The notes under the pieces are model-generated. The model did not search any database. It was not told the origin of the DNA and was given only the letters and a program-made list of their open reading frames with translations. A stretch of DNA of 64,000 bases from Agrocybe praecox (lineage: Eukaryota; Basidiomycota; Agaricomycetes; Agaricales; Agrocybaceae). The position numbers and the translations under genes were made by a program. The number at the start of each line of letters is the position of its first letter. Within the stretch, counting starts at the first letter, position 1. Below are positions 32,413 to 58,322 of this stretch, in pieces. Where the stretch lies: the NCBI GenBank assembly GCA_964017145.1, contig OZ024840.1:4961401-5025400 (forward strand). Reading direction: 5' to 3'.

Positions 32413-32815
32413 CTGGAAATTGCAGCGAAGATGCACGGAATGAGACTCGGAGAGCTAGGAGGGGGGGATAGGTCATTGAAGGAGCAGAGAAATATAACGA
32501 GTGGACTCCTGGCACCAAAATGGGGGCGTGAACGCAACAGAATGTAAGTTCACGTATGCTGTACATTATTTGGCCGACACTAACTATGCCGTTTGCAGCA
32601 AATCTCAAAACATAATGGATCTCCACATCGCTGAAGTCGCTTATCGAAGATCTCTGGTACCATACACGCTTTATGTACGTCAACCACCTCTACTTGCATA
32701 AATACCTTGCTAAAATGTCAACACACGGCAGGAAATTTTGCGCCTCTTTTCCCATTTTTACCATCTCAACTTACTGAACTGTTCTTCCCTTGCCTCATTC
32801 TACCCTACACTTATC

Positions 32816-35009: not shown

Positions 35010-35267
35010 TTTATGGGCACTTCCTATGCACCCTTCGCCCCTCATTGTCGTCATCTCCTTCTTTCTTTCTTGGCATGAACCATCTCACCCCCACTTATGA
35101 TTATATATGTCCTTATGTCGTACCTACTGGAGGCATAGTTTTTTACTTTGTATCTTGGCCTGAATACATTGTTTTCTCCCCCTCTCTCTATGGTATGGTG
35201 ATATTTACTGAGAAAAATAAGTTGCAAATAAAAAGTCAGATTGGAAGTGGTGCAGAGGTACATGTAT

Positions 35268-35654
35268 CTAACACCCCAGTCTTATTAGTCGCTGGTATTC
35301 CTCCTCGTCGTCTTTCATTTCCTTTTCCTTTTTCTTCTTGATACGATACTCCCAACATTTGACTTTGAGTGCCATGCGGTTCCTTTCACGATATTTTGCT
35401 TGCGCGATGCGATGTTGTTCCTTTCTTGCCTCGCTTTCTTCTGATGTTTCTGGTTTTTTTTTTACTTTGAGCGTATAGGTGAGTGCCATGTAAAGGATAA
35501 AACTCAATACTCACTTCCGAGCTCGCAGAGGAGCCGTTTCTCTCTCCTTTTCTATATTTCTAGGGGTATGATAAGCTGCATATAAATAAAATCTGAACTT
35601 CACTTACTTATAATAGTACTTCCTGCGCCTGCTCATTTTTTCACTTGGTAGCAT
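35268..35654 (-). CDS. Small basic coiled-coil protein (element E copy)
   Basis: Three exons: MLPSEKMSRRRKYYY (from 35654), a short NIEKERETAPLRAR exon, and a final exon with EQHRIAQAKYRERNRMALKVK, a WEYRIKKKKEKE helix and an acidic EEEYQRL end at 35268. It is homologous to 18511-19023 and 43567-44068. No disabling change is seen. The function is unknown; strong positive charge followed by an acidic helix suggests DNA or protein binding. An ATG further inside (35636) is also possible. Confidence 0.65.
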
Positions 35655-36122
35655 TTGTAGATAAGTTTTGTAGTAGTTTGTTAAGAAGTGTAAAGGAATG
35701 TATTTAATGTGCGAGCTTAACTTGGACATGCAGCTAGTTCCTAAAATAGAACACATCCAATTTACGACCAAGTAAAGGTAGAGGGGTTGCCAAAGTCATA
35801 CTACTGATGTTATGTCGCTGTAAGATAGACACTGGGGCTCTAAATAAATAGGCATCATCCGTACGTAATAGTATTATTCTAAAAATTTATGCTCTTATAT
35901 GTCAAATAAATGTTTGGGCCGGAAGACTGGTTAGCAGCAAGTGAAGGAGTGCGACTCACAGCAAAATTCATTCGTCGCTTTTTAAACATTGCTCTCGACA
36001 TCTTATGGCCTCAAAAATGTATGGGATATAAGACTAATAGATAGGACCTTCCTCAAGAAAAATCCCTGTTGGTATTTACTTACAACTTACAAGCATATTA
36101 ACATTTTAAATGTTGCATCGTG

Positions 36123-36136
36123 TACGAAATCACCTC
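36123..36136 (-). promoter_or_regulatory. Conserved GTGATTTCGT motif (element E)
   Basis: The minus strand reads GAGGTGATTTCGTA about 470 bp upstream of the small basic gene, in the interval after the TET stop, equivalent to the motifs at 18253 and 44326. Confidence 0.45.
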
Positions 36137-36226
36137 GCTACCATTTAGATCACGCTCAATACAAAGGGCAAAAATGACAATCATATTTGATGGAGTCCGC
36201 GACAATCTAATTACTCTACAATTATA

Positions 36227-36561
36227 TTACTTGCGTCTCTCATGAAGAATGGGTAACAAATTGAGTCCGTGAGTCCAACATTCCGTATTGCGCGCATCCT
36301 GTTGGGCCCATTCCTCAGATGAGAGCCCGGCATAGTATTCCTGAGCCCTCTGAAAGCCGTATTCAACCCAGCGAAAAAGACCGCCGGCGCTGTATTGAGC
36401 AAAGGAGTAGCGGCGCTCGTGAGGTTGGATGGTCGTATTAGAGTGGTGTATAATGGCAGAGGGGAGAAGAATGGTAGAGCCGGGGGGGAATTCAATGACA
36501 AGATGGCACTCCCAGAGTATGAGATGCCCGCCTTTGGTGTAATTGAAGTTGCCGAACGAGG
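36227..36561 (-). pseudogene. TET/JBP dioxygenase of element E, 3' part (split by F)
   Basis: Read on the minus strand, the frame starts at the F junction with SFGNFNYTKGGHLILWEC. It continues FPPGSTILLPSAIIHHSN (distal His), HERRYSFAQYSAGGLFRW (2OG-binding Arg) and LNLLPILHERRK, then a stop at 36227. The 5' part is at 51249-52390. No stop codons occur in this part. Insertion of F separates the HxD-bearing strand from the distal His and Arg, so no active enzyme can be made. Confidence 0.9.
36554..36561 (+). repeat. 8-bp target-site duplication of element F, left copy
   Basis: GAACGAGG lies immediately outside the left end and recurs at 51249-51256 outside the right end. It is coding sequence of the interrupted TET gene (Ser-Phe on the minus strand). 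Confidence 0.85.
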
Positions 36562-36830
36562 GAGGTCTTTACTCTGAGCCACATTTACCAAGCGGTACTG
36601 GTCAGACTTTTGACTTGTCTGAGCAGTTCTGAGCGGAAATTTAGGATTTCCCTCCCAGCTATTTGGCTGGAAAAGACCCCCCAAATGTCCAAGCATTTCC
36701 GATCAGAATCACTCAGACAGATCAGAACTGGTCAGACAGCTCAGCTTTCCGAGCTCCAATCCCTATCTGAAAACTGAGTGAAACCGTTCAGAACTGCTCA
36801 GACCCACAGTCAGATCACATGACCAAAGGC
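36562..36830 (+). repeat. Left terminal inverted repeat and TCAG-rich subterminal region of F
   Basis: The first 45 bp pair with the right end. Downstream, short units related to CAGTTCTGAGC, TCAGACAG and GAACTGCTCAGAC recur about eight times. The right end has equivalent TCTGCTCAGACT units. These are plausible transposase-binding sites. Confidence 0.75.
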
Positions 36831-36852
36831 TTTACAATTAAAGAAAAATGTG

Positions 36853-36940
36853 GTGGAGACACCGGGAATCGAACCCAGAGCCTTGCCAGAGGTCATGTGA
36901 TATAACTATGGACACTCATCCGACTGTACCATAGAGACTT
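36853..36940 (-). other. tRNA-like sequence (SINE head or tRNA relic)
   Basis: On the minus strand, TGGTACAGTCGG matches an A box, with G18/G19 spaced canonically from the 5' end. GGTTCGATTCC is a perfect B box in a good 5-bp T-stem, and a CCA follows the acceptor 3' strand. The 5' acceptor strand (GTCTCTA) does not pair with the 3' strand (TGTCTCC), and no anticodon arm forms. It is therefore tRNA-derived and not a working tRNA. Confidence 0.4.
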
Positions 36941-37194
36941 TGATAGTTAAATATCTAAAGGTAGCTATATACTTTGATATGTTTTATTTTATTTATTTTG
37001 TGGTTATTTTGTCATTTCTGCCAAAACCGTAACATATTACGTCACATTAAATGTTTGATAAATATATTTCGAATATTTTAGGAATTATCGTGATTTTTTC
37101 ATTATTTTAGGAGGTCCGTGTGACATACAAACGACAATTTTTGTAAAATTCCCAAAATAGATGTCCGTGCCGCTGCGGAAATTGCCGGCACAGC

Positions 37195-37590
37195 CACAAC
37201 CCTCTGCCCTTGCCGCGTCATCAATGTTTTCTTTCTTCCTGACCATTACCACCATCCACCCACCCTCTGCCACCACCACATTCCGTCGCCACCACGCCGC
37301 AACGCCAACAACGACGTCCACGACGACGATAACGCCAACAACAACAACGATGCCAGCAATGACGCCAACGCCAGTGACGACGACACAACAACAACGACAC
37401 GTCAGCGACACGGCGACGACGACACGTCAGCGCAGAGGACACCAACGACGACACAGCGACGATACCCACGTCAACGACGACACGCACGACGACGACGCAA
37501 CGACGATGATACGACGGTGACAACGACGACACGAGCGACGACGCCGCCAACGCCAACGACGACATCGAACGACACGGCGACGACCACCCT
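37195..37590. repeat. Degenerate ACG/ACC microsatellite of F, left side
   Basis: Imperfect cgacgac/ccaacaacgacg triplets between the terminal region and the subterminal module. The right-hand equivalent is 50510-50670. Long frames on both strands are composition artefacts. Confidence 0.65.
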
Positions 37591-37594
37591 TTGC

Positions 37595-37985
37595 AGCCAA
37601 CCTGATGTATCAAATCCGGCAATATGCTGTTCCATTGATACATCACGGTAGGCAACTGCCCATCTGGCAACATGTTTTCAGTGTGCCGCAGGCCATCAAT
37701 ACTCCGAAAGCAGATGCCCTTGGTAAACATAGACAAACAACACTGATTTCGAGGCGAGCAGCATGTAATTAAGCTCTGTAGGCGTAGTAGTGGTTAGCAT
37801 GGGCGTCAAATGGCCCATTTGTGTTCTATGAATATTTTTCAAATATTTGGCGCCCTTTGCGCCCTTAAAATAGGACGGGACGGGATGGATGGCAAATGAT
37901 TACTTTGGATGACGTTTAAAAATATTCCATTGCAGGCGTTGCACTATATTTAGTTGACGCATATAATTAGGTCCCTGTACCTTTT
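37595..37985 (-). repeat. Left inverted subterminal module of F
   Basis: An inverted, near-identical copy of 50134-50510. In order it carries TGATGTATCA-type sites, ggcaactgccc, gtgccgcaggccatc, gcgccctttgcgcc, gggacgggatggat and a closing 'ttagttgacgcatataattagg' region. Confidence 0.85.
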
Positions 37986-38196
37986 AGAATGCAAACTAAT
38001 GATAGATTAGCAATGATATCATCATACCCAAAATAGGTCGCGTCCAATTATAGTACAGCATTCTAGACCTCTCCGCTGGCTAATTCCCTCGGGGATCATC
38101 TAGTACCTTACTATGGCGGAAAAAAGCCATGTTATTTTAGACAAAAAAAACACACACACATGCTGTATGCAGCTAGGAGGTATAAAAATCATATAT

Positions 38197-40490
38197 TCAA
38201 ATCGAGGCCTCCATGAATGAAGTGAATATGAGACGACAATCTTGTACATACACCAACCAATCCTTCTTCGCCACTTCTCCCTCTTTCTGTGCCGCGAGCC
38301 CAAAAAAAAACAACGCTACCATCACAACGAGAGTGCCATTGGGTCCAATTTTGCGGAAAGAGCTCCAGTCTCCATCGAACAGCAAGAAATCAATACTACC
38401 GTCTTTGATACGCCACTCCGGTTGAATAAGAGTGTACCATTCGATAAATGAGGCGGAAAGCTTGCTGTACGTGACCAGGGGAACATAATTCGAATTACGA
38501 TGACGTTTCATCCACAAACCAACGTCAGCAGGTCGGTTCTTAGTGGGCAGGGAGCCTATCTTGTCAGGACCATCAGTAGTCACGTGTGTGAACCACAGAT
38601 CCAGCAATTCCTTCCATTCGGGTCCTAGGTCCTGTGATTCCAATGTTTCCAAACCTTTTTGCACCCATGGGATCGATGATTTCCTGATGACGGGTACAAG
38701 GAAATCAATAGGTGGCAGAGAAGGCGCAGAACCAACAGGAGAGGCAGATGAGGAGTACGGAGCAATGGGCGCTGGAGAATCCTGGACGGGGGAAAGAGAC
38801 TGATTGTCGATAGGTTCGAGTCTTGGGCGTTTCGGGGGGAGGGAGTCGCGTAGTAGTTCCGGTGAAATAGAATCTACAGATCTTTTTTTCCCAGCACAAG
38901 CCGGCGCAGGTGTATCATCGTCAGAAAATCGTTGAATGTCGGTACTGGAAGAGGAATCCGGGGTTGAGGGCTGCAGAGCCTGTGACTCCATGGGCAGATC
39001 AGCTGCAACAACTTTGGGCGAGGGACACGGGGTGATATCCGGGGAGTTAGGAGACGATGTCAGATGGGGGGGAGTAATGGACGAAGACATGGAAAGGTTG
39101 GCCGCATGAAGAGAGACGTCCACTCCGTTGAGCATGTAAGGTGGAGGTGGGGAAGCGCGACTCGGACCAGGATTCAAGTTGCCAGCTGCATCGTTACTTT
39201 CCTGCTGGATGGCGTCGATATGAACATTTGCTTCCAATTCCAAAGAAGAAAGGGTGAGCTCTTCTTCGCCTGTGTCTAAAGATCGCGAACGGCATTCTTT
39301 GGGACCTATATACCTAGTTAGATTTAAATAGAGCTGGAAGAGAATAAATGGAAACTTACTGTAGCATTTTTGCAAGAAAGAACCAAAGACGGGTACGATG
39401 AATCGTTTGAAACGCGCACGTTCAGCCGTCCCAAAGTTCATCTTCACGTCCCCGGGTATTGTTCCAGAATGTATACTGTAGAGGCCTTCAGTCGATTATT
39501 AGCGAGAGAAAGAATAAAATATGTACCTAATCATATTGAGTTTGCCGCCATGGGCAGGCTCTGGACCTCCTGCGATCAAAGTGACTTTCCATCCCGTAAC
39601 CTCTGATATCAAATCCAGAATTGGTTGCAAAAAGTTGGCGAGGCCTTGAATAGCCCTAAATCAAAATATGAGAAATTTTGAAAATGAAAGGAAGTATGTC
39701 TATGTACTGCTGACGATCCGAGGGAGCACTGGACACAGGAACACTGGTCTCTGACCTCCATTTCTCCATATCTCTTTCGTACTCGGCCTCTGCCACATTA
39801 ACCCAGTGGCTTTGATCTTCGGCAGGCAAGTTGGAGAACATTTCTTTGGCGAATTTATCTCGTAGAGCAGCATAGTGTTTCTTCTCTAGACCTTGGGCGA
39901 CGGCGTGGACTTTGACTCGGCTTTCGATGGTTTCACGATGGTTCCGGCGCCAGACATTTGAAGCGGTCTTTCGACGAGGGCGACCGTGACCGGATTCCGA
40001 TTTCCCAGAGAGCTTTTGAAGCAGAGCGCGGTAGGGGTTATACGCCCCCGAATCTGTGGAGTTGTGATTGTGGTCCTTCATGTATTGATAGACCATCCAT
40101 CGTTTGATTTGCTACGTACATGGTTATGTGAGTCACATGATTTTCCGGTATTGGTCAGCCGAGGCCCGAACTTACAGACTTTCGCCACTGTATGAGTTGT
40201 TGTCGAGACTCATACTCCTGCATTTTGGTAGCAAGTTCTTCATCTGAGAGACCATCGGCATAGGGTGGCGGGCGATCAGGATCAGGATCGTCGTCGTTGA
40301 TAGAAGCAAGGAACTCAGGCGTTGGCTCCTGCTCGTGAGGTAAGTCTATCGGAAATCTTTTGAAGTATTTTCGCTGAATTAAAGATAGGGCCTCCGCGGC
40401 GTAATTATCTCTAACAGCTGTAGTGTACGCCTCCTTCTGGCTCATGAGAAAGTCCTTTCTTGAGCCACGAAACGATCCTGGGTTGGGCAT
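38197..40490 (-). CDS. HMG-box-like KDZ accessory protein (element F, intact)
   Basis: This is the only copy without stops. It has five exons with short GT-AG introns and encodes about 730 residues. Exon 1 has MPNPGSFRGSRKDFL and KRFPIDLPHEQEP. Exon 2 has QIKRWMVYQYMKDH, the basic RPRRKTASNVWRRNH and KEMFSNLPAEDQSHWVNVAE, which resembles the last helix of an HMG box. Exon 3 has TGWKVTLIAGGPEPAHGGK and exon 4 FGSFLQKCY. Exon 5 has a Ser/Pro-rich linker with a KKRS/PKRPR basic signal and a Trp-rich C-terminal domain (LWMKRHR, FIEWYTLIQPEW, GPNGTLVVMVALFFFG). It probably acts in the nucleus on DNA or chromatin; the HMG assignment is by pattern only. A diverged homologue sits beside KDZ in relic G. 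Confidence 0.8.
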
Positions 40491-41153
40491 CGTATGAAAA
40501 ACGAACGGGACTGACGGAAGGACAACGATAGCACGGAAATGAATAAATGTCGAGGAAGAAGCACCCACGAGCAAATCATACCAGCATGGCGAAGGCGGTA
40601 TAACAGGAGATCGGGGGGCTTATCTGGGATCCTGGGATCAACACCGGCGTACGTACCCTCCCTATATCTCAAGCGTTCAAACCGAAACCTTACTAACTGT
40701 TTTGTTTTGGGGTTGCGGTTTTACAGGAATTTATTGAATTCACGTGATAACGACACACGACGGACAAGGCGTAACAACTCATTGGCAAACCTATATGAAC
40801 GTACATCAACCCCCCTTTTTTTCCCCATGAAATAAAATTTTCGACCACATTACGTCCGTGCTTTTAGATGTTTTTTGACACATACACACCTGTTCAGGCA
40901 AGGTTTCGAATAACGCAAGGCGCGCTAATGAATCCTGACACCGCCTATTGTGTATGTAAACCTGAAATCCAGTGTTTCTTCTCGGAGCAAGAGTGAAATC
41001 GAGATTGACGGTGTAATTATTTTTACGTATGTTTCCCTCTTGATTTCTTTTTAAGAACGTAGCTAATCGATCTCTTTCGACAGCATTTTATTCCACAACT
41101 CCTGCTCTTACATCGTATCACCACATACCCTACATAAATCAACACGTAAATTT
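40491..41153. promoter_or_regulatory. Divergent promoter region between HMG-like and RNase H1-N-like genes (F)
   Basis: 660 bp of non-coding DNA between divergent start codons. No repeat or clear box could be assigned. The equivalent intervals in B and E are about 400 bp. Confidence 0.4.
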
Positions 41154-42980
41154 ATGACTCAAAAAAAAGGTATGTTGCCAAAGTTTTAAGCCTCCAACGA
41201 CGATTCTAACATCTTATTATGTTCTAGATCCAAAGCAATCAGGCAAGTTAGGCCGCCGCGAGAGTAAGTTCCGTCCTAGGTCGTTATTTCTTCCTCACTC
41301 AATGACATCATTTCATACAGCCAACGAAGACGAAGCTATGGACGTAGAAGTATTGTTCACCAACGGCCCTCAGGCATTTACGTGGGTCGTCATTGCCGAC
41401 GACACCGTTGCCATCGTTGACAACGAAGGGTAACATTTTTTTTCAAAAGCTCAATTGATTTATTATTTACTTTTTTTGGTCATGTAGTGATGTTCGCTGC
41501 TTCGACGCGCCCTCATTCCAACGCTTTTCTGTCGTTAGGTTTGATACCCGTGAAGAGGCTGTGGCCTATCACAACGGCGTTCTATTTCGTGGTATAGCGC
41601 CCTTGTCTGCCGCTCCTATTGCACCAATTGCACCTCCTGTCCCTCAGACCTCGCAACAACCTCTCCCTGTCCAGCATCAGCATCAGTTTCAGAAAGCAAA
41701 AGCTGAATCTGGGGCTAAAGGGAATCCAATTGTCATTAACAATACCCCTCCCAAGGTTCCCTCTGCTTCCACTCGGATTCGCCGAATTCGTCGTATGTTG
41801 GCCATCGCACAAACTGTGGACACTCCCACGCCAGCTCCTCGTCGCAATGCAGACACTGACCGCCCACGCCGTAGCTAGCGACTCGTCAACTACACAGCCG
41901 CTGCAACTTCATCAAAGGTTGCTGCAGCGCTGAATCTTGGAACACCTATGCTTCCCCGCTCTGATCTAGGCCCATTGCTCCCTGCTCCTTCCATTTCCGC
42001 CGCTGGGCAGAATCCATCTCGTCCTGCTCATCACGTACTTCCAACCGTCTGGATTGATAGCGACTCTGACAGCGATAACGAAATCGAAACGGATGAAGAA
42101 CGCGGAGCTCCGGGCAAAGGTCTTTGCAAGCGCTGTAAATTACCCGTTGCGCGTTCAAATGCAGGGATGCGTTGCACTAGTACTGCTCAGGGTTGCATTA
42201 CGAAACCGGCAACGACAAGGTTGGCAACATCTTCTGGGGTGGGCAATATTTCTTCGGCACCAGAAACTCGGACCATTGGGGGACCTCCCAGGAAGCCAGC
42301 TCCTAATGGGAAAGGCTCTAACAACACCGCTACCCCTGCCCTCCTTTCTGCTCCAGCAGGCCCAGTACGTTGGCGCCCGAAGAAGTACGCAAGTCGGATC
42401 CTGGACGCGGTCGATGCAGCATTTCCACTGGACTCTGAGCCTGCGTCTGCCCCCCTTACGTTCGTCAACAACGACAGGTCACGCAAGCGTGGCCCTTCCT
42501 CCTCTCGACAGTCGACAAAGGCAACATCAGGCAAGAAGATGAAGATCATCAGGAAGTATTACCCACCTCTCTACGAAGACATGCCCGATACGATGCCCTA
42601 TTCGGAGATTGAAGTAACGGCCACCGAGCAAGAGGACAGCGATGAAGAAATCCGCGACAATAGCCTCAAGAAAAAAGGCAATGGAAAAGGAAAAGGAAAA
42701 GGAAAGGTATCTACCGAGGATGACACCAGCGACACCGACACCGATATCATTCCTCGCAAACGCAAGATACCGCCCTCAACCCCTTCCAATAAACAGAAGA
42801 AGCGTGTCGCCGCCTCCCCTGATGTTTTGGACTATGAACTCATGCTCGAGCAGGCGACTGCCACACCCAAACCTATGCCCACAGCTGTGGGCTCCGACTA
42901 CGCCTATGCACCATTTGCTTCGACCTCCGCTGCCCCTTTATCTGTAGCTCACATCCTCGCTCCTTTCGCCGCCGTCTCGT

Positions 42981-43014
<34 letters not shown>

Positions 43015-43285
43015 ACCTGCACACATCCCGGAACACTACGCACATATTCCACCACCACCACCGCTGCAGACACTGTTGAACATTCCCCCGCCTCCTGCAC
43101 TTCCACCTCTCCCTGTAACCATCGGCTCCGGCTCTCAGCCTCCCGCCTACACCGGCATTTCCCCTCCTCCTTACACCATCGTTGCCAATCAAGAAGACAG
43201 CACCATGCTCGATGCAGATAGCGACTATGGGGACCTTCTAGGAATCGACCCCGCCCACTTTGACGACATTAGTGAATTGAATTAA
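41154..43285 (+). CDS. RNase H1 N-terminal/viroplasmin-like Pro-rich protein (element F)
   Basis: Five exons: MTQKK, a short DPKQSGKLGRRE exon, an exon with FTWVVIADDTVAIVDNEG, then the exon starting DVRCFDAPSFQRFSVVRFDTREEAVAYHNGVLF. The latter two make the RNase H1 N-terminal-like domain, which in other proteins binds RNA/DNA hybrids. The remainder has Ser/Asp clusters (SDSDSDNE), a Cys pair region (CKRCK), KKMKIIRKYYPPLYEDMP, a KGKGKGK stretch, basic RKRKIP and a Pro-rich tail ending FDDISELN. A TAG at 41876-41878 interrupts the frame, so the copy is broken or yields two pieces. The domain call is by residue pattern. Confidence 0.7.
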
Positions 43286-43566
43286 GTGGGTAGTTTTGCC
43301 ATATGTTTTATTTTATTTCGATCTTTTCGTACATCCTTCTCGACACATGTTTTATGAATTCCTATGTTCCTATGCCCGCTATGCCCCTATGCTAGTTAAT
43401 GTTTCATGATTCTACTATGCTGTACTAGTCGTACTTATTTCGTTCACCTGAGGCGATGTTTTTGCATTTCTTTAGTTCTCAATGCGATGTTTTTTGTGCC
43501 TCACTACGTGTGTTCTGGGTTGTAAAAGAGAGAGTAGTGCTATTATAATAGACGAAGGTATGTACA
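43286..43566. terminator. Convergent 3' region between RNase H1-N-like and small basic genes (F)
   Basis: 280 bp of AT-rich DNA between two convergent stops. It must hold both polyadenylation regions; no unambiguous signal is assigned. Confidence 0.3.
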
Positions 43567-44068
43567 CTATTCTAACGCCATGGCCATGAGGCGTTGATAC
43601 TCCTCCTCGTCCTTTCCAATCTCGGCCTCCCTCTTGGCCTTCATTCTATATGATAAGTTGAATGAAAATCTGTGAGTCGATATGCAGTCACCAATTTATA
43701 TAACAATATGTACCGCTGACCTGTACTCTACACTTTTAATCCGTAGCTTGCTCCGATTCGCCTCACGATATTTCGCCTGAGCTTGACGATGGCGTTCTCG
43801 TTTGGCAACCATATCTTCTTCACTATGGTGCAGAGGCACTTGTCTGTAGGGATTATTAATATCATGTAAATTTGCTGGCTAAATTATACTGCTTACTTTG
43901 CTCTAATTTGTGACCGTCTACGTTCCTCATGCAAGTTACTAGAATGTAATTCAGTGCCGAAAATAGGTCAAAAAATACAGAAGTTACTCACTCGTAATAA
44001 TATTTACGACGTCTCGCATTGTGTTGGACTTTAGGAGTATTATTTTGATCTGGATCCGAGAATTTCAT
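43567..44068 (-). CDS. Small basic coiled-coil protein (element F copy)
   Basis: Four exons joined by ~50-75-nt GT-AG introns give about 118 residues. It starts MKFSDPDQNN, followed by NARRRKYYYD, LHEERRRSQIRAK and KRERHRQAQAKYREANRSKLRIK. VEYRMKAKREAEIGKDEEEYQRL follows, and it ends AMALE. It has the same architecture as the copies at 18511 and 35268, with no disabling change. It lies downstream of TET in the same orientation. Family unknown; a small DNA-binding or adaptor role is a guess. Confidence 0.7.
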
Positions 44069-44325
44069 GTGACGAGAGGCAGAGTGGTGTAGAAGGTTGA
44101 GCGTAGGTACGGAATGAATGAGTGTTCAAGTCAAGTGCCTATTGAGGAAATCGAACTTCGGCGCGCTTCCGAATTAGAAACAAATTTACGGCTCACTGCA
44201 TCGATACGATATTCTTTAAATTGCACGGACAGAGAGATACAGTGTATACAATTTGATATATCACATTTTTTCAAGGAGAGATGGACTGTGGTGAAGAGAA
44301 ATAAAATAAAATCGAGTTGACGCGC

Positions 44326-44340
44326 GCACGAAATCACCAC
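44326..44340 (-). promoter_or_regulatory. Conserved GTGGTGATTTCGTGC motif (element F)
   Basis: Located 70 bp downstream of the TET stop and about 260 bp upstream of the small-gene start, in sense orientation for the latter. It matches 18253-18270 exactly over 15 nt. Confidence 0.5.
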
Positions 44341-44409
44341 GGAAGAAAAGGGCTATATTTATCCGGCTAACTACCAAGGTACGTGCTCATGCATACAAAA
44401 TTTATATTG

Positions 44410-45729
44410 TTAAGAGAGCCCTGAAGATTTAAGTGGGATAATGGGGAGGAGAGAAAGTCCGTGCACCCAACGCTGCGCCTCCTTTTCCTGCACATCTTGT
44501 AAGAGCTCGGGAGTGAATTGGCTATAGTATTCGAGAGCTGTCTTGCAGTCGTGTTCGACCCATCTGAAGATGCCTCCGGCTGTGTATTGAGCGAACGAGT
44601 GTCGTGTTTCGTGTGGGGGAATTGAGGCGTTGGAATGCGTTACAACAGAAGACGTGATCAAAATGGTTGAGCCGGGAGGAAATTCGATGGTGAGGCGACA
44701 CTCCCACAAGATGAGGTGGCCACCCCGTGATGGGTCGTAGTTTCCGAGAGCTGTGATGGCACACAATCCGTATGGCAAATCTCCGAAGTCTTTGTGTTTG
44801 AAACATATGGTTTGAGGGCCGAAATTGTAGGTGAAGGCGGACATAATGCTGTTATCAAAGATTCGCTCGAGTTCTGGGTGCGCATCGTGTAGTTTACGCG
44901 AGGTTTGTACATAGTGGGTGTGGAGTTTGGGGGTCCATGTTGCTACTGTTGCTGTTAAATTAAAGGGAGGAAATTAATTAGCAAAGAAAATTTATAATCC
45001 AGATAAACACATACCTGAAACGAAACCTGCCAGTCTCTTGAAAATAGGCATTTCCTTTAGAACCACAAAACCCGGTTTTTCTTTTATCTCCTCAATGGCG
45101 TATGTTGCCTTCGTGCGGGGGCCATCGTCCTTACCGATGAACGCTGTGTTGGTGACTTGGCTAGTGTTGAAGTCAAGTGGGCAGGGGATCGGTTTAGCGT
45201 TGTTGACAAAACGCATGAGTACGTCTTCTTGAGCCATGTATTCGCCTATTTTTTCTTCTGCTTTCTTGCCCTGCTTTCTTCTCTTCCGGGCAGCGCGGCT
45301 ATGCTCCTTGGTTTTTTGCTTCCGTTTTGCGCTTTTATTACTAGATTGGGTCGGGTTTTCTCCATGTGTGGTAAGTGGCGTAATAATTGGTGACTGACGG
45401 CGCGTTGGATGAACCTCGTTTACAGAGGTTGTTGGCAAAGGTGGTGGGAGACAAACACTATCCATGCCGTCCTGGGGGTCTTCGCCGATAGACGACATGG
45501 GTGATAAACTGAAGTAAATGGGGTCAAGTTCCTCATCGATGGTAGCCAGGGTTGGGAGGGGCGGTGGGAGATGAAGTGTGTCGACACCATCTTCATCTTC
45601 ATCGATAGAGGAAACAGGTGACAAGCTAAAGAGTATGGGGTCGAGTTCGTTATTATCTTTGAGTAAACTGGCAGCGGTGAGTAAAGAAGTGAAATAAAAT
45701 TTGGGGTCGAACGATGTTTGGATTTCCAT
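44410..45729 (-). CDS. TET/JBP-type 2OG-Fe(II) dioxygenase (element F, internally shortened)
   Basis: Exon 1 (ATG 45729, or in-frame 45816) encodes MEIQTSFDPKFYF, acidic Ser/Pro repeats, a basic RKRRKQGKK cluster and DDGPRTKATYAIEEI. It ends FKRLAGFVSG at about 45015. Exon 2 (about 44954-44410) has the catalytic core FKHKDFGDLPYG (HxD), GGHLILWEC, FPPGSTILITSSVVTHSN (distal His), HETRHSFAQYTAGGIFRW (Arg) and a stop at 44410. All metal and 2OG ligands are present. However, about 90 residues present in the E and A/D copies (LLAG...RRG...SHGxGQxRPxNL) are missing between AIEEI and FKRLAGF. Activity is therefore uncertain. Expected role: nuclear 5-methylcytosine oxidation. Confidence 0.85.
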
Positions 45730-46012
45730 ATCAAAAAGATGGACGAGGAAGGAATTGGGTGAGCCAAGAGATTTGAGACTAGTAGCAGAAGAGGGAGTTC
45801 CCGGGCTTGAGCGCACCAGTCTCCTGCGTCGAGTTCAACAGTAAGTTTAAGAACAAGAATCAAATCTGACGAATTGGAAATCCTTACTCTATCTGGAATT
45901 ACTAATTCCAGACATCATGTGATCGTTCCCCATTATCTATTTATAATTTATATGTACAAATATGGTAGTATGTGTTTCCTTTGTATTTCCCCTCTGCGTT
46001 ATATTCACGAAA
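45730..46012. promoter_or_regulatory. Divergent TET/KDZ promoter region (element F)
   Basis: The dioxygenase (-) and transposase (+) start codons face away from each other across about 280 bp. The same arrangement exists in E (52391-52868). It probably co-regulates the two genes. No specific box is assigned. Confidence 0.5.
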
Positions 46013-49000
46013 ATGTCCACACGAGCAAGAAAGAAAGCTAAAAAAGCAACCAGCCAGGCATATCACGATGAAATCCCGGTATTCGGGTCCTACAATGTTA
46101 TTCACGCAAGTGAAGGAAAGCTACGGCGTGTAGGGAGCACTTTGCTGACAGCTCCAATGGAGCGCGAGCCCGCCTTACCTCCCGATCTTTGGGAAACAAC
46201 CGTCTCTTGGGAGCCACCTGATGATGATACTTTTGCACTCGATCCCACAACGGACCTATACGAAACGACTCTAGGAGGTGAAATAATGGTTGACGCGCCC
46301 GCGGATCTCGGCAAGCTAAAGAAAAAGAGGAAGAGGACTGAAGTCTCGGTTAGTCCATGGTAACTTTTCTTCTTGTCCCAGCTTCTCAACTTACGCTCCT
46401 TTTTAGAAACGCCCGCATGTTGTGTGGAAGAAGCAGTATCGTCAAACATATTTGGACGAACTTCTGCGTTGGTCTGGTCGAGGCGACTTCGCCACTGCGC
46501 AACACTGTCCCGACTGTGTTTCTCGGCAAAAAAATCCCCCAGGTTCACCCATCTATCGTTGCGAAGATTGCTTTATTCCCGACATGTGCTGTGCTGCATG
46601 CTGTCTGAAGCGTCATAGACAGCTTCCTTTCCATCGTATCAAGGTACTGTTTTACTAAATTTCTATGCTAGACTGACTTACATGTTCCATTTTCACCTAG
46701 AAATGGAATGGGACTCACTTCGAAGTTGTAACGCTCAAAGCCCTTGGTTTGAAAATCCAACTTAATCACTCTGGATTGAGTTGCGAGAATCCCATTCCAT
46801 GTCACTCAAAGCTTCTCATTTTACACACGAACGGAATACACGAGGTTTCTATCCAATATTGCGCATGTACTCGATATATACCATACCACTTACAACTACT
46901 TCGCCGACGCATCTATCCCGCAACGCAACTCAATCCGAAAGCGTGTGCGACATTTGAATTACTAGATCAGCTCCACAAATATGTGCTTACCACTAAGGCG
47001 TCAACGTATGACTTCTATCGCGGTCTGGAGAAGATGACCGACAGCACTGGTCTCCACCCCCAACGCTCACGATACCGAGCTCTATTTCGCATGATAATGC
47101 AGTGGCGCCATTTGAAGATGTTGAAATGGGCGGGTTGCGCTCATGATCCTTCTGGGGTTGATGGAACCAAACCCGGCGAGCTAGCTGTCAGGTGCCCTTC
47201 ATGCCCTTATCCTGGCATTAACCTGGTAGAAGGATGGGATAGCGTACCCGATGGCATGAAGTAAGTTCTAAATTTTGGGGTTATTCTTATGTCCGTTACT
47301 CATTATTATGGGCAGGTTTCTTTATATGGTTATCATTTGCATGGATGCGAACTTTCGTTTGAAAAACCAATTCGTTTCAAATTACTCGCAAGATCCTGGC
47401 CTGGGTATTGGGTGGGCGTATATGGTGCCACGCCAGCCGTATGAAGACTATGTTTTAAGTAGGGCAGACGATGAAGACGTACGTACATATCAATTTTATC
47501 AGATTTTTTATTGACATTGCCAACAGATAAGTACCTGTGTCGGGTTTCAAGCACTCGCAAAAGCGAATACTAAATTTTCAAGGGGTCTACGATACACCGG
47601 TGTCAATATGACCGTGTGTGGTCGCTCGGAAATGATACTTCCAGTCGGCGTGGGGAACTTGCATAAGGGAGAAAGGTATGTCGCGTTCTGCACCTTATCA
47701 CTAAATATCATTCATTTTTATATAGATACGCTAATATGGACTACATATTCGGTTCGGCCTTACAAGGAGTTCTGGTTTCCCTCGTCTTGATCAGCTATGA
47801 CGTGGCCTGCCAATGGTTTACGAATCTATTCAAACGAATCGAACAACATTGGCCCGAGGAAATCAAGCCCCGACCAGATATCGTGGTTACGCCAGCTATA
47901 CCGAAACTTCACGAGCCCATGCATCAACGAACAGGGCATCAGGTTTATTCGCTCAACTACATAAACGGCGTTGGGCTTGCTGATTGCGAATGCCCTGAAC
48001 ATGTATGGAGTCCTCATAACGCCTTGGGAAACTCGACAAAGACACAAGCTCCTGGCTCAAGACATGACGTCTTGGATGACCACTTTGGATTTTGGAACTG
48101 GCAGAAGTATATTGGGCAGGGACGAACGCTAGCACGTCGTTATCGAGCAGCAGTGGCGGATAGGAACCTACTTACTGAAAGTCATCGAGGCTTGACTTCA
48201 ACTCTGCGACAAGAAACCGTACTTGAGTGGAAGAAAAAATGTGTACAGTGAGAATCTGCCCCTTTCCCCAAGAACACGTTCAACCCTTGTCACACGGATG
48301 GCGAATGTAAGTCACTTTTCTTTTCTTGTTATGACCAATTTGACATATTCTCTATCTAGGCATGTCTGAAACCTCTGTGAGGAAGGAGCTTGCCGACGAA
48401 GAGAAACACATCGTCGACTCGGGGGCACCACAAGTTCACCGGACGTCTGCACCTGCCTTTATACTCATGGCCCTTGATCTCGAAAACTCACAGTAAGTTC
48501 TGATTTACTTTATTCTACTCTGTTCCAAAAGTTTGTACTGATAAATACGTTAAGACGTCGCCTCCATCGAATCATCAAGGACCCTCTCTCCTCCTCCACA
48601 TTGCGAAAGGAAGGTTCGATCACCGAGCAATGGAATACGCTACGAAACCGTATTCGGGCTTGGGAACAACTCCTGCTAATCTACATGCCCGGGTTACTTC
48701 AATATCAAAATGACTGCTCTCGCTCTACAACTGCGAACATATTCGTCCCGAAATCCGACAACGCAGAGGATGCAATCGTCATCCTTCCTTCTCATATCCC
48801 CATGTCCGTGAGAGCATCAATTTGCCACCCTTCGTTGCCAGCAATAGAGGCCAAAATGCGCACTGCTCAGTGCAGCGACGCATTGGATGAGTTGCGAAGA
48901 ACGCTTAGACTGAAGCAGCATATGATCTTATTCAAGAACCGCAATGTACGGGGACAGTGCGAGGGCACCCGATCTAGGGCTTTAATAGATGCTGTGCACC

Positions 49001-49794
49001 TTCGAGCCCGTCGAGCCGTCGACAAATACCGCGTTGCAAGGGAGGCAAAGATGAACCTCGAAGGACCTGGCGACTGGGAGAAAGTTTATCGACCCCTTCT
49101 TGATGGCGATATTCGAAGCTACGAAGACCCTACAAAGCTTCCAAAGAAGGTTGGCCGCCCAGGAACGCTTGAGGATGGACAAGTCGAGAGTTCTGTCACA
49201 AATGAAGAAGAAAATGAATTCACACTCTTTGATGAGCCTCGATCTCGTCGGGACGGCACAGGCGAAACCAGGAGAACAATTTCGTGGATTTGGATGACAC
49301 CCGGGGCGATAGATGCTGAGGAGGAGAAGGACGACATCGTACTTTCTGAATGGGCAAAGAGTAGGGCTCGTGCGTGCAGAGCGAAAGACGAGGTTTTACT
49401 GCTGAAAGAAGAAATGCGCCGAGTTCTTGCCTATCTTCGTTGGAAGGCCCAATGGTGGAGAAACAAGATAAAAAACAACACTGGGCTATTGTCACGACAG
49501 TTGGAAGGTCTCAATGCGTACGCGGAAAGGCAAGCCAAGATTCAAGAGTCTCTCGCAGAGACTTTCCTTGCCCAATGGAAGAAGTCACTCGAAACCTCAC
49601 AGGACGATCGCGATACAGCCGGTCCATCACAAACTCATACGACACCAGAAGACGACGAGGAGGAGGATGACGACGACGAGAACGACGACGAGCTCGGAGA
49701 GGGAGATTACGACGATGAATGCACCTCCGCTCGCCTAGAGCAACAATCCCTGGGTATCGATGACTATGATATGGACAACACCCCCCTTGAGTAG
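46013..49794 (+). pseudogene. CxC2-class KDZ transposase (element F, near-intact, one nonsense codon)
   Basis: Eight exons: 46013-46349, about 46409-46643, 46702-47262, 47317-47478, 47525-47676, 47727-48308, 48360-48494 and 48554-49794, for about 1,130 residues. Exon 2 holds the CxC2 zinc cluster (CPDC...CEDC...CCAACC..RH). The RNase H-fold DDE triad is visible: ICMDANF, ISYDVACQW and DCECPEHVW. The third motif has Cys where other copies have Gly, but Glu is kept. The C-terminal half is helical (TEQWNTLRNRIRAWE, GETRRTISWIW, EEMRRVLAYL, WWRNK) with an acidic tail. A TGA at 48249-48251 replaces Trp in the CVEWEE-type segment. Otherwise it is full length. Confidence 0.9.
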
Positions 49795-50133
49795 ATACCT
49801 CGCCTGTTCCTTTTCTCTTCTCGTTTATATTTGCATAGTTTCTCAGTGGCTTAGTGTTGATTTTGCATATCAGAAAATTTTCTTGATTCCCCCTTTTTGA
49901 GTCCTTATTTGTTGCTATATTTTGAAGCGCAGAAAATAGTACATATACATAAACGTACAAAACATAATTATAGCGCTGTTGTTATTCTACGTCATAGGAA
50001 AGAGAATAAATTTAGGTACCATCCGCAATGTCATAGGGGTGATGTCATTAATGGGCGTGTTCTAGACCCAGCTAAACTTGGAGTAATGACTAATTCTTAT
50101 GACGTGAGAAATGTAGGCCACCTAATTATATGC

Positions 50134-50510
50134 GTCAACTAAATATAGTGCAACGCCTGCAACGGAATATTTTTAAACGTCATCCAAAGTAATCATTTGC
50201 CATCCATCCCGTCCCGTCCTATTTTAAGGGCGCAAAGGGCGCCAAATATTTGGAAAATATTCATAGAACACAAATGGGCCATTTGACGCCCATGCTAACC
50301 ACTACTACGCCTACAGAGCTTAATTACATGCTGCTCGCCTCGAAATCAGTGTTGTTTGTCTATGTTTACCAAGGGCATCTGCTTTCGGAGTATTGATGGC
50401 CTGCGGCACACTGAAAACATGTTGCCAGATGGGCAGTTGCCTACCGTGATGTATCAATGGAACAGCATATTGCTGGATTTGATACATGAATTTGCCAGAC
50501 AAGGCTGCGA
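50134..50510 (+). repeat. Right inverted subterminal module of F
   Basis: Inverted copy of 37595-37985, with the ccatcccgtcccgtcc and gcgcaaagggcgcc core, gtgatgtatcaatgg and ttgatacatg sites. It starts 340 bp after the KDZ stop. Confidence 0.85.
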
Positions 50511-51060
50511 CGACACGCACGTCAGCGACAACGACGACGACGGCACGGCGACGGTGACGACGACGACACGAGCGACGACGACGACACGAGCGATGACGAC
50601 GACATGAGCGACGGGGCAACGACACGAGCGACGGGGCAACGACGGTGACGACAACGCCAACGACGAACGCCAGCAAACGAGGCGGCGGCCTTGGGGGCAA
50701 GGGCGTGACGTGGCGAGGTGAGGGGCGGGGCATTTAGGACGATGACCAGGTGAGTACCCCTCAGTTTTCTTGCTCCCCGCCCCTGTCCATAGGCTAGGCC
50801 TCTATCCCTCCTCTCCCATCCCCTTCCTCCTCCCCACCCACTTCCCTTCTCTTCCCTATCCCCTCCCATCTCCTCTTCCCTCTATCCTCCCCTTTCCATA
50901 CTCCCTTCCCCCCTTTTTCTCCAATTAAAAATAAGTATATAAGTATATAAACATCATGTATATTATGCATTTTCTTAATTAATTGATTTTCGCTTTTTTA
51001 TATGTTTTTTTGTGTGATTCCTATGTTTTTGGTGAATGTTATGTTTTTTTAAACATAAGT
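50511..51060. repeat. Microsatellite, C-rich and AT-rich spacer of F, right side
   Basis: ACG-type degenerate repeats (50510-50670) give way to a C/T-rich block (50750-50930) and then AT-rich sequence. No gene is supported. Confidence 0.55.
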
Positions 51061-51089
51061 AACATTGCATAAAACATGCAAACAGCAAG

Positions 51090-51248
51090 TTTCCACTAAG
51101 TTGCACAGGATTCTGGATGGAGTCCAGGTCAGAAACACTTGGTAATGGTCAGTTCTGCTCAGACTCAGTCAGTTCTGCTCAGACTCAGTCAGACCCACTT
51201 GTTTCTGACCAGTACCACTTGGTAGGCGTGGGGCAGAGTAAAGTACTG
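51090..51248 (-). repeat. Right terminal inverted repeat and subterminal repeats of F
   Basis: The outer 45 bp (51204-51248) pair with the left end. Inside them a 20-bp unit containing TCTGCTCAGACT occurs twice in tandem (51150-51189). Related CAGAAACA.TTGGTA copies flank it. Confidence 0.75.
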
Positions 51249-52390
51249 GAACGAGGTGATGGCGCACCAACCATAGGGAAGGTTACCGAAGTCTTTATGC
51301 TTAAAACAAACAGTCTGGGGACCAAAGTTGTAGGTGTAGGCAGAGAACAAGGCGCCGTCAAATAAGCATTCTAAATCAGGGGAGTTGGCGTGCAATTTAC
51401 CCAGCTTCTCTGCATAGTGTTGATGCAGGAGTGGGGCCCAGGTTGCAACGGCAGCTAGAAGGTGATGGATGAGGTAGATATTGCGCGGGTGCACAAATTG
51501 CGCACCTGTGACAAACCCTGCCAATCGTCTAAACACCCGCATCCCATTCAACTCCTTCAAGACCTCCTCGTTGGATCCTGTATGGTGTAGGTTAGAAGGC
51601 CGCCCCTGTCCACCTCCATGAGATACCCCGCAACTCAAAGCCACAAAATCGCCGCGTCGGGGTACCTTTGCATTCACCTTGGGTTTTGGAACATGGCAGC
51701 GGTGACACTTTTGCTCTAACGCATCCGCAGCCTCATTCTGCATTTGAATCCAAGTTGGATCATCCGGCCGGCCTGCAAGTAGTGCTATCATACGGTGTGT
51801 TTTGTCAACGATAGGCTTCGCTTTTCTAGTAGAGAAAAATTAGATAGGAATTGATCGTAGGGGGACATGGACAATTACATGCTGTCCCATTTCTGGAGAG
51901 TAAAATGCAACGTCTCAACGACGTGCTCTAGCGTAAGCTTCTGGGTTGACCTGGGTTCATCGTCTTTACCCAGAAAGCCCGTGCTTGCCACTTTGACGCC
52001 CCCCAGGTCCATTTCGCAAGGTACCAGTTCGGCTGGGCGAACATAGCGGTTCATCGTCTCCTCCCTGACTTCGTAGTGGACGTAGGGTGCGTTTTGTCTC
52101 TCCTCTATTCTTCTCCTCTTCCTATTAGCCTTGCTACACTCCCTATTGCGTTGGCGCTTTCTACTTTTGCCTGGATTTTTGAGGTCTGAAGGCGATGTCA
52201 TAACCAATGGAGGCGGCGGTGGGAGTTCAAGTTCAGGGGGGTCGTTGTCGTCTGCACTGGATGTGGCTGAGGAAAGAGGGAAGAGACTGAAGAGGTCGGG
52301 TTGACGTTCATTGTGATCCTGGAGGGACGCTGCGTCGGCAAGAAGGTGAAAAAAGCTGAAATCGGGGTTGGCAGGCATGATTTTAGCCAT
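51249..52390 (-). pseudogene. TET/JBP dioxygenase of element E, 5' part (split by F)
   Basis: From ATG 52390, exon 1 has MAKIMPANPDFSFF, acidic Ser/Pro regions, basic RKRQRNR and RKRRRIEER, and LPCEM-like VPCEMDL. Exon 2 (about 51837-51505) carries KPIVDKTHRMIALLAGRPDDP, RRGDFVALSCGVSHGGGQGRPSNL and FRRLAGFVTG. Exon 3 (about 51453 onward) reaches FKHKDFGNLPYGWCAITSF (HxD) and stops at the F junction. No in-frame stop precedes the junction, so E apparently had an intact TET when F inserted. The 3' part is at 36227-36561. Confidence 0.9.
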
Positions 52391-52414
52391 AGTGAAGTAA
52401 GATGGAGGTCGTCG

Positions 52415-52690
52415 GTGTCCAAGGGGGTATTCCGCGTCGGACAGCAGCTATGAGAGGTTGCCGGGCTCGATCACCATGCTCGAAACCTCTTTGGACGCAT
52501 GATACTTGAGAGAAAAGGATGCACAAAAGAGAGAGGAATGAAAAGCGGAGGATGTGAGTCGTTCAGGTGTCCAAGGGGATATCCCGCATCGGACAACAGC
52601 TATAAGAGGTTACCGGGCTCGATCACCGTGCTCAAAACCCCTTTGGATGCGTGATACTTGGAGGAAAAGGATGAACAAAAGAAAGAAAAA
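52415..52690 (+). repeat. 152-bp tandem duplication in the TET/KDZ divergent region of E
   Basis: gtgtccaaggggg at 52415 and again at 52567 begin two units that share ccgcrtcgga, agctat.agaggtt, ccgggctcgatcacc and gatactt.gagaaaaggatg. The second unit is slightly shorter at its end. It lies upstream of the TET start, and the rest of 52391-52868 is non-coding. Confidence 0.75.
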
Positions 52691-52868
52691 AGAAAAGCAG
52701 GGAGGTGTATTACCAGAATTGCGAATCATAGATATTGAGTGTTAAAATGTTAACCTTTTTAGGCAGAGTTCAGAATCATGTGACCTACCGAAGTACTCTG
52801 ACGTCTTCCGTGTTAGCTATGTTAACCTTGGCCTTGCCATTCACTTTCTCCAACTCATTTAAAATTCC

Positions 52869-55800
52869 ATGTCCAATACAAGACCAAAGAAAAAACAATG
52901 ACCCAACAGCGTTTATCGCGACCCCGCACCCATTTTTGACGAGTACACTATCATCCATGCAAGCGAAGGTCGCTTAAGAAGAGTAGGAAACAAAAATACC
53001 TTCCTCACTGCTCCAAAAATATGGGTGCAGCAAATAGCTTCAGGTCAGTGGGAATCGACCGCTTTATGGGTGCCTCAAGATGATGAACAATACACATTGG
53101 ATCCGTCGGGTGAATTGTACGAAGAAGCTTTGGAACAGGACGTCACGACACCGCTTCCTGCAGTGGCCGAAAAGGAGAAAAAGCCCAGGAAACGAAGTCA
53201 GGTGGAGGTAAGATTTATAGAAGCTATTAATCAAATGTAATGCTTACTTATGAGCCTCTGAATTTCTCCCTCACAGATAAGACCTCATGTTGCCTGGACA
53301 AATCAATATTGTCAGACCTATTTGGATGAACTTGTCCGATGGGATGGCCGAGGCGATTTCACTCTGGGCAAGTGCTGCCCCGATTGCATTGCCCGCAAAG
53401 TGGAAGTTCCAGGACCTTGTGAATACCGCTGTGATTCATGCACAGTACCTGATCTTACTTGTGCCTCGTGCTGCATAAGGCGACACCGAAATTCTCCCTT
53501 TCATACCATCAAGGTACGCAGTGCAGCTGTTGCTTCAACTAAATCCCTCTAACACAGCGCAGAAATGGGCAGATAACCGCTTTGTCAATGTTATGCTAGG
53601 GTCGCTCGGGCTCAAGATACAATTAAACCACTCCGGCATGCATTGTGACAACCCAACTCCATGCCATTCCCGCCTCCTTGTCCTCCACACCAACGGCATT
53701 CACAAAATCAATATTCAATATTGTGGATGTACTTGATCCATTCCCTTATATCTTCAACTCCTTCGACGTCGATTTTATCCCGCAACTCAACTCAATATGA
53801 AAACATGTGCTACATTCGAGCTTTTAGACCAACTTCACAAGTATTCCCTTACCACCAAATCATTGACCTACGACTTCTATCGTGGCCTGGAGATCATGAC
53901 TGACAGCACAGGTCTGAATAGACCAAGATCTCGATACCGTCCCCTGCTCTGTATGGCGCCACCTCAAAATGTTGAAGCGAGCGGGACGTGCTTACGACCC
54001 ATCTGGTGCTACCGGGACGTGAGAGGGTGAGCTCGCCGTCTTATGCCCATCTTGTCCACGACCTGGGGTGAACTTACCCATTGGGTGGGAGAACGCTCCC
54101 GATAGTTTAAAGTGAGTTCCTTTTGATTCTGTACAGAAAGGTACCCTACAATGTTTTCATCTCAGGTACCTCTACACGGCTATCCTCTGCATGGACGCAA
54201 ATTTTAGGCTGAAGAATCAACTCGTATCAAACTATTCGCAGGACCTGGGTCTCGGAATTGGGTGGGGGTATATGGTCCCTAGATTACCATACGAAGCCTA
54301 CGTTTTGAGTCGAGCAGATGACAAAGATGTATGTTATGACCTGTCCCTTCTACTTGTGCGTACTTAATCCTGACCTTCAAATTTCTGGTAGATCAGTACG
54401 TGCATCGGCTTCCAGGAGTTAGCCAAAGCAAACACCAAGTTCTCCCAAGGCCTTCGGTACACAGGAGTGAATATGACTGTCTGCGGATGATCAGAGATGA
54501 TCATGCCTGTTGGGGTGAGGAATCTTCATAAAGGAGAAAGGTGCATAAATTCTATGTTTGAATTCCTTTATAGTACCAGTACATATTGAAACTTGCTTCA
54601 GATACACGAACATGGACTACATATTTGGCTCTGCATTGCAGAACATCCTCGTTCCTCTAGTGCTCATTAGCTACGACATAGCATGCCAGTGGTTTATCAA
54701 TCTGTTCAAGAGGATTGATTCCCACTGGCCCGATCACATCAAACCGACGGTCCAGACGAATATTAAACCAGCAATCCCCAAGCTCCACAAACCAATGCAC
54801 CGCACCTCAAACCATCAAATGTACTCACTCAACTTCATTCCGGGGGTTGGTCTCACAGATGGAGAATGCCCGGAGCGTGTTTGGAGCCCACACAACGCTC
54901 TTGGAAACTTGACAAAGAACCAAAGCCCTGGCTCTCGGCACGACGTGCTCGACGACCACTTTGGGTTCTGGAATTGGCAGAAGTACATTGGTCAAGGCGA
55001 TACGCTTCTGCGCCGCTATCGTCGTGCGGTGGCCGAACGGAACACACAGGTTGAGGGCCATAGAAGCCTTACATCAACTCTTCGAGACGGCACTGCAAAA
55101 GTTTGGGAGAAACTGTGTGTCGAGTGGGAGGAGGATATGTTCCCAAAAACCAAGCCCAATCCGTACCATACCGAATGCGAATGTAAGCTATTACCCCCTT
55201 GACTGAACGACCATTTGATGACATATTTTATAGGTATATCGGAGGCATCGGTTCAAAAAGAATTTGCTGAAGAAGATAAACGCCAGCTGGATGCTGGTTT
55301 TGTTTCATTACACCAGACGACCGCATCTGGCTTTATCATTTTGGCATTAGACCTTGAGCATGCTCAGTAAGTTTCCACAAACATTATAATTTCGAGTCAC
55401 CCGTAGCTAATTTACAATTGAATACATAGACGACGAGTGCAACATCTATCCAAGGATCCTCAAGCCAATTCGACTGCCCGCAAAGAGGGTTCCATAACCG
55501 AGCAGAAAAACACGCTACGCTCTCGCATTCGTGCATGGGAGCCTCTACTTCCTCTCTATATGCCAGGGTGGTTGCAGTTTCAAACAGATTGCAAAAGCTT
55601 GCCCAGCATGGCCAAGTTGTTCGCTCCAACGTCTGGTAATCCGGAGGACTATGTGCTTCCCCTTCCATCAAGAATTCCTGAACCATATCGCACGCGAATC
55701 TGCGCCCCTGGTCTGGCCACAATAGAGGGGAAAATGTGTATAGCCCAGTGCACCGATGCCCTCGATTCTTTAAGGCGAATCCTCAAAGTCAAACAGCGAC

Positions 55801-58230: not shown

Positions 58231-58322
58231 AACATATATTTCAGTCTTGTAAATTACCCATCACGTAGCTCAAATGTAATTTTAGATATGTTTTCTTGTT
58301 TCAATGAATGTGATATTTCCAA

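Follow-up and report, generated by a model that had tools for sequence, protein, structure and literature searches.

We present the dissection of a nested transposon stack in a 64-kb stretch of the genome of the mushroom Agrocybe praecox (C1:4961401-5025400, hereafter the window), drawn from an assembly of 59.2 Mb in 347 contigs, which we designate C1, C2 and so on. By comparing copies across this assembly, we show that a five-gene transposon with a KDZ transposase lies inside a small gene-free element, which itself lies inside the TET gene of a further KDZ-bearing copy. With ends reading CACCC...GGCTG and a 7-bp target-site duplication (TSD), the five-gene element fits the Kyakuja type of KDZ transposons (CA..TG ends, 7-bp TSD). 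We also show that, among its relatives, the gene block is present in the assembly in both orientations between two unlike tips. We propose that Kyakuja elements are invertible transposons, in which concertedly evolving inverted arms, set directly inside non-interchangeable tips, flip a multi-gene block to give two isomers, perhaps unequal in expression or silencing; we give this general proposal an even chance of being correct.

The first-pass annotation of this DNA had described one KDZ element, bounded by terminal inverted repeats (TIRs) of about 45 bp and an 8-bp duplication, that carried its five genes into a TET gene in a single insertion. The TIRs, the inverted modules of about 390 bp, the octamer GAACGAGG on both sides and five conserved coding regions are all present where it had placed them. 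The TIRs and GAACGAGG, however, delimit a member of a gene-free family, and the gene cassette proper spans 37585-50507. Ten loci (L017-L026) align to window positions 36562-37584 plus 50507-51248, and in six of the 20 copies (L017, L019, L020, L021, L023 and L025) the two aligned pieces overlap by exactly 8 bases, namely CGACGAC followed by a G that is also the final base of the inner element. A 60-base joint built with a single CGACGAC (37555-37584 plus 50515-50544) is matched at 54 or more of 60 positions by eight of 19 small copies, and by none of the 19 for any of 16 control joints with shifted breakpoints. The small copies thus preserve the empty site with a single CGACGAC, which identifies 37585-50507 as a separate insertion. 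A reading of the inner duplication as 8 bp (GCGACGAC) was rejected, as its extra G is the element's own last base; the 7-bp reading is preferred because it also suits the other loci.

The ends of the outer element were examined in their own right. Its inverted termini (36567-36606 against 51204-51243) are 85% identical over 40 nucleotides, and they recur genome-wide: the left end has 40 matches, of which 24 (the window and its duplicate on C4 included) are nearly full-length at 93-100%, and the right end has 35. In 22 of these 24 the match starts within 5 bases of query base 9, where the element begins behind the 8-bp duplication; the window itself and the C4 duplicate are the remaining two. 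Identical 8-bp flanks were found at 12 of the 22 loci examined, one of them needing a one-base shift; counting the window and the C4 duplicate as one insertion, this gives 11 independent duplications. The start positions together with the identical 8-bp flanks mark 36562 and 51248 as true transposon ends. Thirteen of the 22 loci measure 1.58-1.87 kb, and in all 20 other loci aligned to the window the gene region is unmatched. The first-pass annotation had named copies with these termini lacking most of the genes as evidence that would tell against it, and such copies are what the genome search with those termini returned. The longest gene-bearing locus with the family's ends, C9:3640105-3646091 (5,987 bp), has an 8-bp TSD and encodes CxC5 (9.1e-22) and CxC6 (4e-18) domains; this one locus is the best candidate for the family's transposase source. 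By comparison of coordinates, none of the other CxC6 matches was seen inside outer-family ends. A 6.8-kb locus with such ends (C1:1354510-1361673) contains long open reading frames that look retroelement-like by eye.

Could the whole interval nevertheless be one autonomous 14.7-kb element, of which the copies of about 1.76 kb are internal-deletion derivatives? Such derivatives are common among DNA transposons, and C4:24199-38888 does hold a duplicate alike in ends and content. That duplicate, however, is 99.44% identical to the window locus over 15,112 columns (21 mismatches) and shares its flanks and its GAACGAGG, so it represents one insertion duplicated and not a second insertion. Moreover, the junction in the small copies falls precisely where the inner element begins and ends, and it holds a single CGACGAC; the inner tips are found at further sites, flanked there by different 7-bp TSDs; and the gene region is unmatched in the 20 other loci aligned. 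We accord this explanation next to no credence and reject it on the strength of the empty-site joint.

The nested arrangement extends one level further. When the flanks of the small element are joined, they align in one piece to TET residues 223-410 at 54%, and the interrupted gene belongs to a Kyakuja-like host copy in which gene 1, TET and KDZ are recognised and whose inverted arms are 97.7% identical over 388 bp. In place of the single insertion first envisaged, the TET gene was therefore interrupted by the small element, and the small element in turn by the five-gene one. Four events follow one another: the Kyakuja-like host copy (29418-58784) inserted first; a gene-free element of about 1.76 kb, perhaps moved by a CxC5/CxC6 transposase, next landed in the host TET gene with an 8-bp TSD; the five-gene Kyakuja-type element inserted into the small element with a 7-bp TSD; and the whole stack was finally duplicated between the ends of the large contigs C1 and C4. 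The stack lies near the end of C1 (5,036,957 bases) and near the start of C4.

Table 1. Features of the nested stack, in window coordinates (position 1 is C1:4961401).
Feature	Position	Strand	Remarks
TSD GGAGCCC of host copy	29411-29417 and 58785-58791	window strand	
Host Kyakuja-like copy	29418..58784	+	29,367 bp with inserts; gene 1, TET and KDZ recognised; gene block toward tip A
8-bp TSD GAACGAGG of outer element	36554-36561 and 51249-51256		identical on both sides
Outer gene-free element	36562..51248	+	about 1.76 kb (36562-37584 + 50508-51248), split by inner element
Left TIR of outer element	36562..36606	+	recurs genome-wide
Left copy of 7-bp TSD CGACGAC, inner element	37578..37584	.	
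Inner five-gene Kyakuja-type KDZ transposon	37585..50507	+	12,923 bp; CA..TG ends
Tip A CACCCTTTGCAGCCAACCTG	37585..37604	+	
Left inverted arm	37605..37972	+	368 bp; 99.2% identical to right arm
Gene 1 (first annotated as HMG-like)	38197..40490	-	five exons by hand, 690 residues; HMG label unproven
Gene 2 (first annotated as RNase-H1-N-like)	41302..43285	+	in-frame stop 41876-41878
Small basic gene region	43560..44080	-	similar protein in 3 of 6 relatives
TET/JBP-like dioxygenase gene	44410..45729	-	two exons, 418 residues
KDZ transposase gene, CxC2 and KDZ domains	46013..49794	+	in-frame stop 48249-48251
Right inverted arm	50120..50487	-	partner of left arm
Tip B CAGCCTTGTCTGGCAAATTC, read inward	50488..50507	-	
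Right copy of 7-bp TSD CGACGAC, inner element	50508..50514	.	
Right TIR of outer element	51204..51248	-	recurs genome-wide

The two 20-bp tips of the inner element, A and B, are unlike each other beyond CAnCCTT, and the 368-bp arms lie directly inside them; arms and tips together (37585-37972 against 50120-50507) are 97% identical over 388 nucleotides. Genome-wide pattern scans, allowing up to 2 mismatches, gave 57 matches for tip A and 54 for tip B, and the same patterns read backwards gave none in the genome. Among 14 large A-B pairs, 12 are flanked by perfect 7-bp TSDs, a count that rises to 13 when the diverged tip A of the host copy is read at 58784. Eight of ten small pairs likewise have perfect 7-bp TSDs, a small pair on C8 showing 8 identical flank bases by eye, and the 21 perfect duplications (13 large, 8 small) are all distinct; the tip pairs C6:1224868/1231439, C62 and C334 stand outside these counts. 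All 14 large elements possess inverted arms, of 368-556 bp and 95.8-100% identical within the element, which start at most 20 bases from the tips, except in the host copy, where the true tip A lies further in, so that 413 bases separate the arm from the A tip matched by the pattern. Between elements the likeness is far lower, the arms of six others being 67.7-75.1% identical to that of the window. In a tree of arms, the two arms of one element are each other's nearest neighbours in ten of 14 cases, and the other four elements make up two recent, near-identical twin pairs, C2a/C8b and C11/C12b.

Some further tips deserve mention. One of the ten small pairs, an inward-facing B-B pair at C339:7416-11148, has 6 of 7 matching flank bases and, if mobile, would count against a strict left/right role of the tips. 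At C2:1122428-1127599 lies a small A-B element with the TSD TTTGACA, whose flanks resemble a conserved part of gene 2, a match to which begins just past it at C2:1127960; insertion of one Kyakuja element into another thus seems to be frequent. In the window itself, three stray Kyakuja tips without an identified partner (59151-59178, 26153-26180 and 26460-26487; one A, two B) accompany a further Kyakuja-like set at 5304-25360. The latter comprises KDZ (5304-5807, minus strand), TET (17635-18168, plus), gene 2 (19322-20614, minus), gene 1 (23795-24715, plus) and a tip A (25333-25360), with one stop each in the TET, gene 2 and gene 1 matches; its other tip was not found by pattern.

Judged by its recurrence, the gene set of the inner element is one mobile unit, spanning 37585-50507, although some loci yielded no TET or no small gene. 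This bears out the original proposal of a single five-gene unit, with different ends. All six relatives compared (C5, C7, C11, C12, C159 and C6b) have genes 1, 2 and KDZ arranged in the order of the window copy; TET was found in five of them, C159 being the one without it, and the small gene in three (C5, C11 and C6b). Elsewhere in the genome, too, the set is enclosed by this pair of tips, with 7-bp TSDs that differ from locus to locus. We also counted the neighbours of the 79 strongest of 149 KDZ matches, using all 61 TET matches, 19 of 22 for gene 2, 37 of 40 for PF01693 (Cauli_VI) and 87 of 99 for gene 1. TET lies divergently within 5 kb 5' of KDZ at 39 of the 79 loci and in the same orientation at none. 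Up to 14 kb away, gene 1 is oriented against KDZ at 49 loci and with it at 4; gene 2, up to 9 kb away, is oriented with KDZ at 14 and against it at 2. Twelve loci have a Cauli_VI match, usually a weak one, 5' of KDZ and on its strand, and no locus has one on the other strand; only 12 of the 37 Cauli_VI matches are near a KDZ match. At 16 of the 79 loci KDZ has none of these four neighbours. The conserved order and the neighbourhood counts together indicate that the gene set is a recurrent ordered architecture in which TET is not always found. In Gymnopilus dilepis, homologues of gene 1 (CVT26_006140) and TET (CVT26_006141) carry adjacent locus tags, and the entry of each gives a contig of 13,032 bases.

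For the window copy, gene 1, TET and the 5' part of KDZ were modelled by hand; the 3' part of KDZ is given unspliced, and the model of gene 2 begins downstream of its upstream exons. The transposase assignment is firm, with KDZ (PF18758, 7.6e-32 in one exon and 5.9e-6 in another) and CxC2 (PF18803, 1.5e-37) domains. The transposase and gene 2 each contain an in-frame stop, and the window copy is thus probably not autonomous. At the KDZ stop the frame is open in the four relatives displayed (C5, C6b, C12 and C159), and at the gene 2 stop in the five displayed (C5, C7, C11, C159 and C6b); both stops are also present in the C4 duplicate. As six of 22 gene 2 matches elsewhere carry stops, decay is not special to the window copy. 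Across 17 TET homologues the HxD...H residues are invariant, and PF12851 is matched at 0.01 or better in six of them (best 2.2e-6). Gene 1 has 44 homologues among the matches listed, all from mushroom-forming genera, and the predicted model of one of them, P0014, has helices at 152-228.

The orientation of the gene block was typed from a set of 56 KDZ matches together with tip pairs and TSDs; element C8a, with an intact TSD and no KDZ match, stands outside the counts. Of the copies with an intact TSD, eight have the block toward tip B (the window copy, C2a, C3, C8b, C6a, C24, C5 and C7) and four toward tip A (the host, C11, C12b and C6b); C2b is also of the A type. In each of these 12 TSD-bearing copies gene 1 lies at the opposite tip. 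A tree of KDZ exons with 15 rows requires four orientation switches, three of them forced by supported branches; with the 12 TSD-bearing rows alone it requires three, two of them forced. We posit that the KDZ transposase would treat the unlike tips as a left/right pair and make 7-bp staggered cuts, while homologous recombination between the long inverted arms would keep the arms alike and at times invert everything between them. The TET protein would counter DNA methylation of the element, and genes 1, 2 and the small gene would be its accessory factors, not passengers. Because tips and TSDs are intact in both orientations, inversion through the arms fits, whereas elements that had exchanged ends across loci would no longer have matching TSDs. 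We hence prefer recombination between the arms as the cause. Taken jointly, stacked transpositions, arm recombination with flipping of the cargo, and accessory roles of the genes form an account that we consider probable.

Several points weigh against this account. C2b lacks a TSD altogether (0 of 7 bases match), and the tip pattern overlooked the host's own tip A. The arms of the twins C2a and C8b differ by 4% and were thus not homogenised since the two split. Shuffled orientation labels require as few switches in 257 of 500 trials with 15 rows and in 178 of 500 with 12, so that orientation is neither more clustered nor more scattered on the KDZ tree than in the shuffles; C3 and the host have long branches in that tree. 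The protein labels are also less secure than first assigned. Whereas KDZ is firm, the window TET gene matches PF12851 weakly (0.0069, below the curated cut-off), and in the PDB the single sequence had no match at E of 1 or less, while the profile search up to E of 10 brought up no TET entry. HMG is absent from the Pfam, PDB sequence profile, Foldseek and VIA-align results for gene 1. Gene 2 of the window has no match to PF01693, the RNase H1 N-terminal domain, and none of 7993 scored candidates from the protein database reached E of 0.01. Neither of the latter two labels was therefore recovered, and the accessory role that we give these genes is purely our inference.

The main rival to arm recombination holds that the orientations are real but arise in transposition or repair, for instance by template switching between the arms during gap copying. 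The twins favour it, in that both pairs, C11/C12b and C2a/C8b, keep one orientation without homogenisation since their split; flipping events thus seem infrequent and might go along with movement. The data nonetheless fit the two routes equally well, and the most closely related lineages that differ in orientation, C24 and C159 on the one hand and C11 and C12b on the other, sit at different insertion sites; we regard this route as possible but rather unlikely. A second concern is that both orientations and the identical arms are artefacts of assembly. Our comparison drew on the assembly alone; arms of 368-556 bp at 96-100% identity can mislead short-read assembly, and wrongly joined near-identical arms could mimic a flip. 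Yet contigs reach 5 Mb, which suggests that long reads were used, arm identity varies from 95.8 to 100% in place of a uniform collapse, and tips and TSDs remain intact; against a chance error, it is only the agreement of the twins C11 and C12b that speaks. We judge an artefact improbable, and less so an origin in transposition or repair. Recombination between the arms thus remains the cause that we prefer.

These findings correct the ends of a TET-bearing transposon and place its TET gene in a recurrent ordered gene set, albeit one that does not show it at every locus. With the tip patterns and the lengths of the TSDs, autonomous and gene-free copies can be annotated cleanly, and Kyakuja copies can be told apart from the 8-bp elements nested with them. 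Should the flipping prove true, the cargo of a DNA transposon would be naturally polymorphic in its orientation, and there would be a testable connection in mushrooms between recombination, the placement of promoters and escape from methylation. A unique block found in both orientations between homogenised inverted repeats is familiar from the chloroplast inverted repeats and the yeast 2-micron plasmid. Those are replicons, whereas the five-gene unit would be a chromosomal DNA transposon. Among the literature matches listed, no title or abstract deals with inverted arms or flipped interiors in Kyakuja; the founding KDZ/TET paper lay outside this coverage, so that priority is uncertain and absence from print is not established.

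Dispersed multicopy CxC5/CxC6 genes are known from Pleurotus ostreatus, where, in the part of PMC7641404 covered here, the inserts have no KDZ domain nearby and a Copia element is suspected. The C9 locus of the outer family likewise carries such a gene, but, unlike the Pleurotus inserts as described in that part, here one CxC5/CxC6 gene is enclosed by inverted ends and an 8-bp TSD. This locus, with its surroundings (C9:3639905-3646291), might explain the Pleurotus inserts. As to KDZ elements, the main text of Kojima 2025 (PMC12730594) assigns 8-bp TSDs to Zisupton and Dileera, which share the KDZ superfamily with the inner element; the inner element and its relatives have 7-bp duplications. 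TET-bearing Kyakuja are already known: the same text describes Kyakuja-1_LB and Kyakuja-2_LB, with a 7-bp TSD and CA..TG ends, as families without TIRs. That main text makes no mention of HMG, RNase H or subterminal. In the TET family around the gene at 44410-44970, the residues at positions +5 and +11 after the first His look unlike the AG-type Gly and Asp given there. The inner element resembles these two families in its 7-bp TSD, its CA..TG ends, its KDZ and TET/JBP-like genes and its occurrence in Agaricomycetes. It differs from the Kyakuja of that text in its long near-identical inverted arms directly inside unlike tips, in the two orientations that the gene block takes among elements of its type, and in its further conserved genes. 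Relative to the literature covered, what is new is the pairing of unlike tips with homogenised inverted arms, the two orientations of the block and the recurrent gene set.

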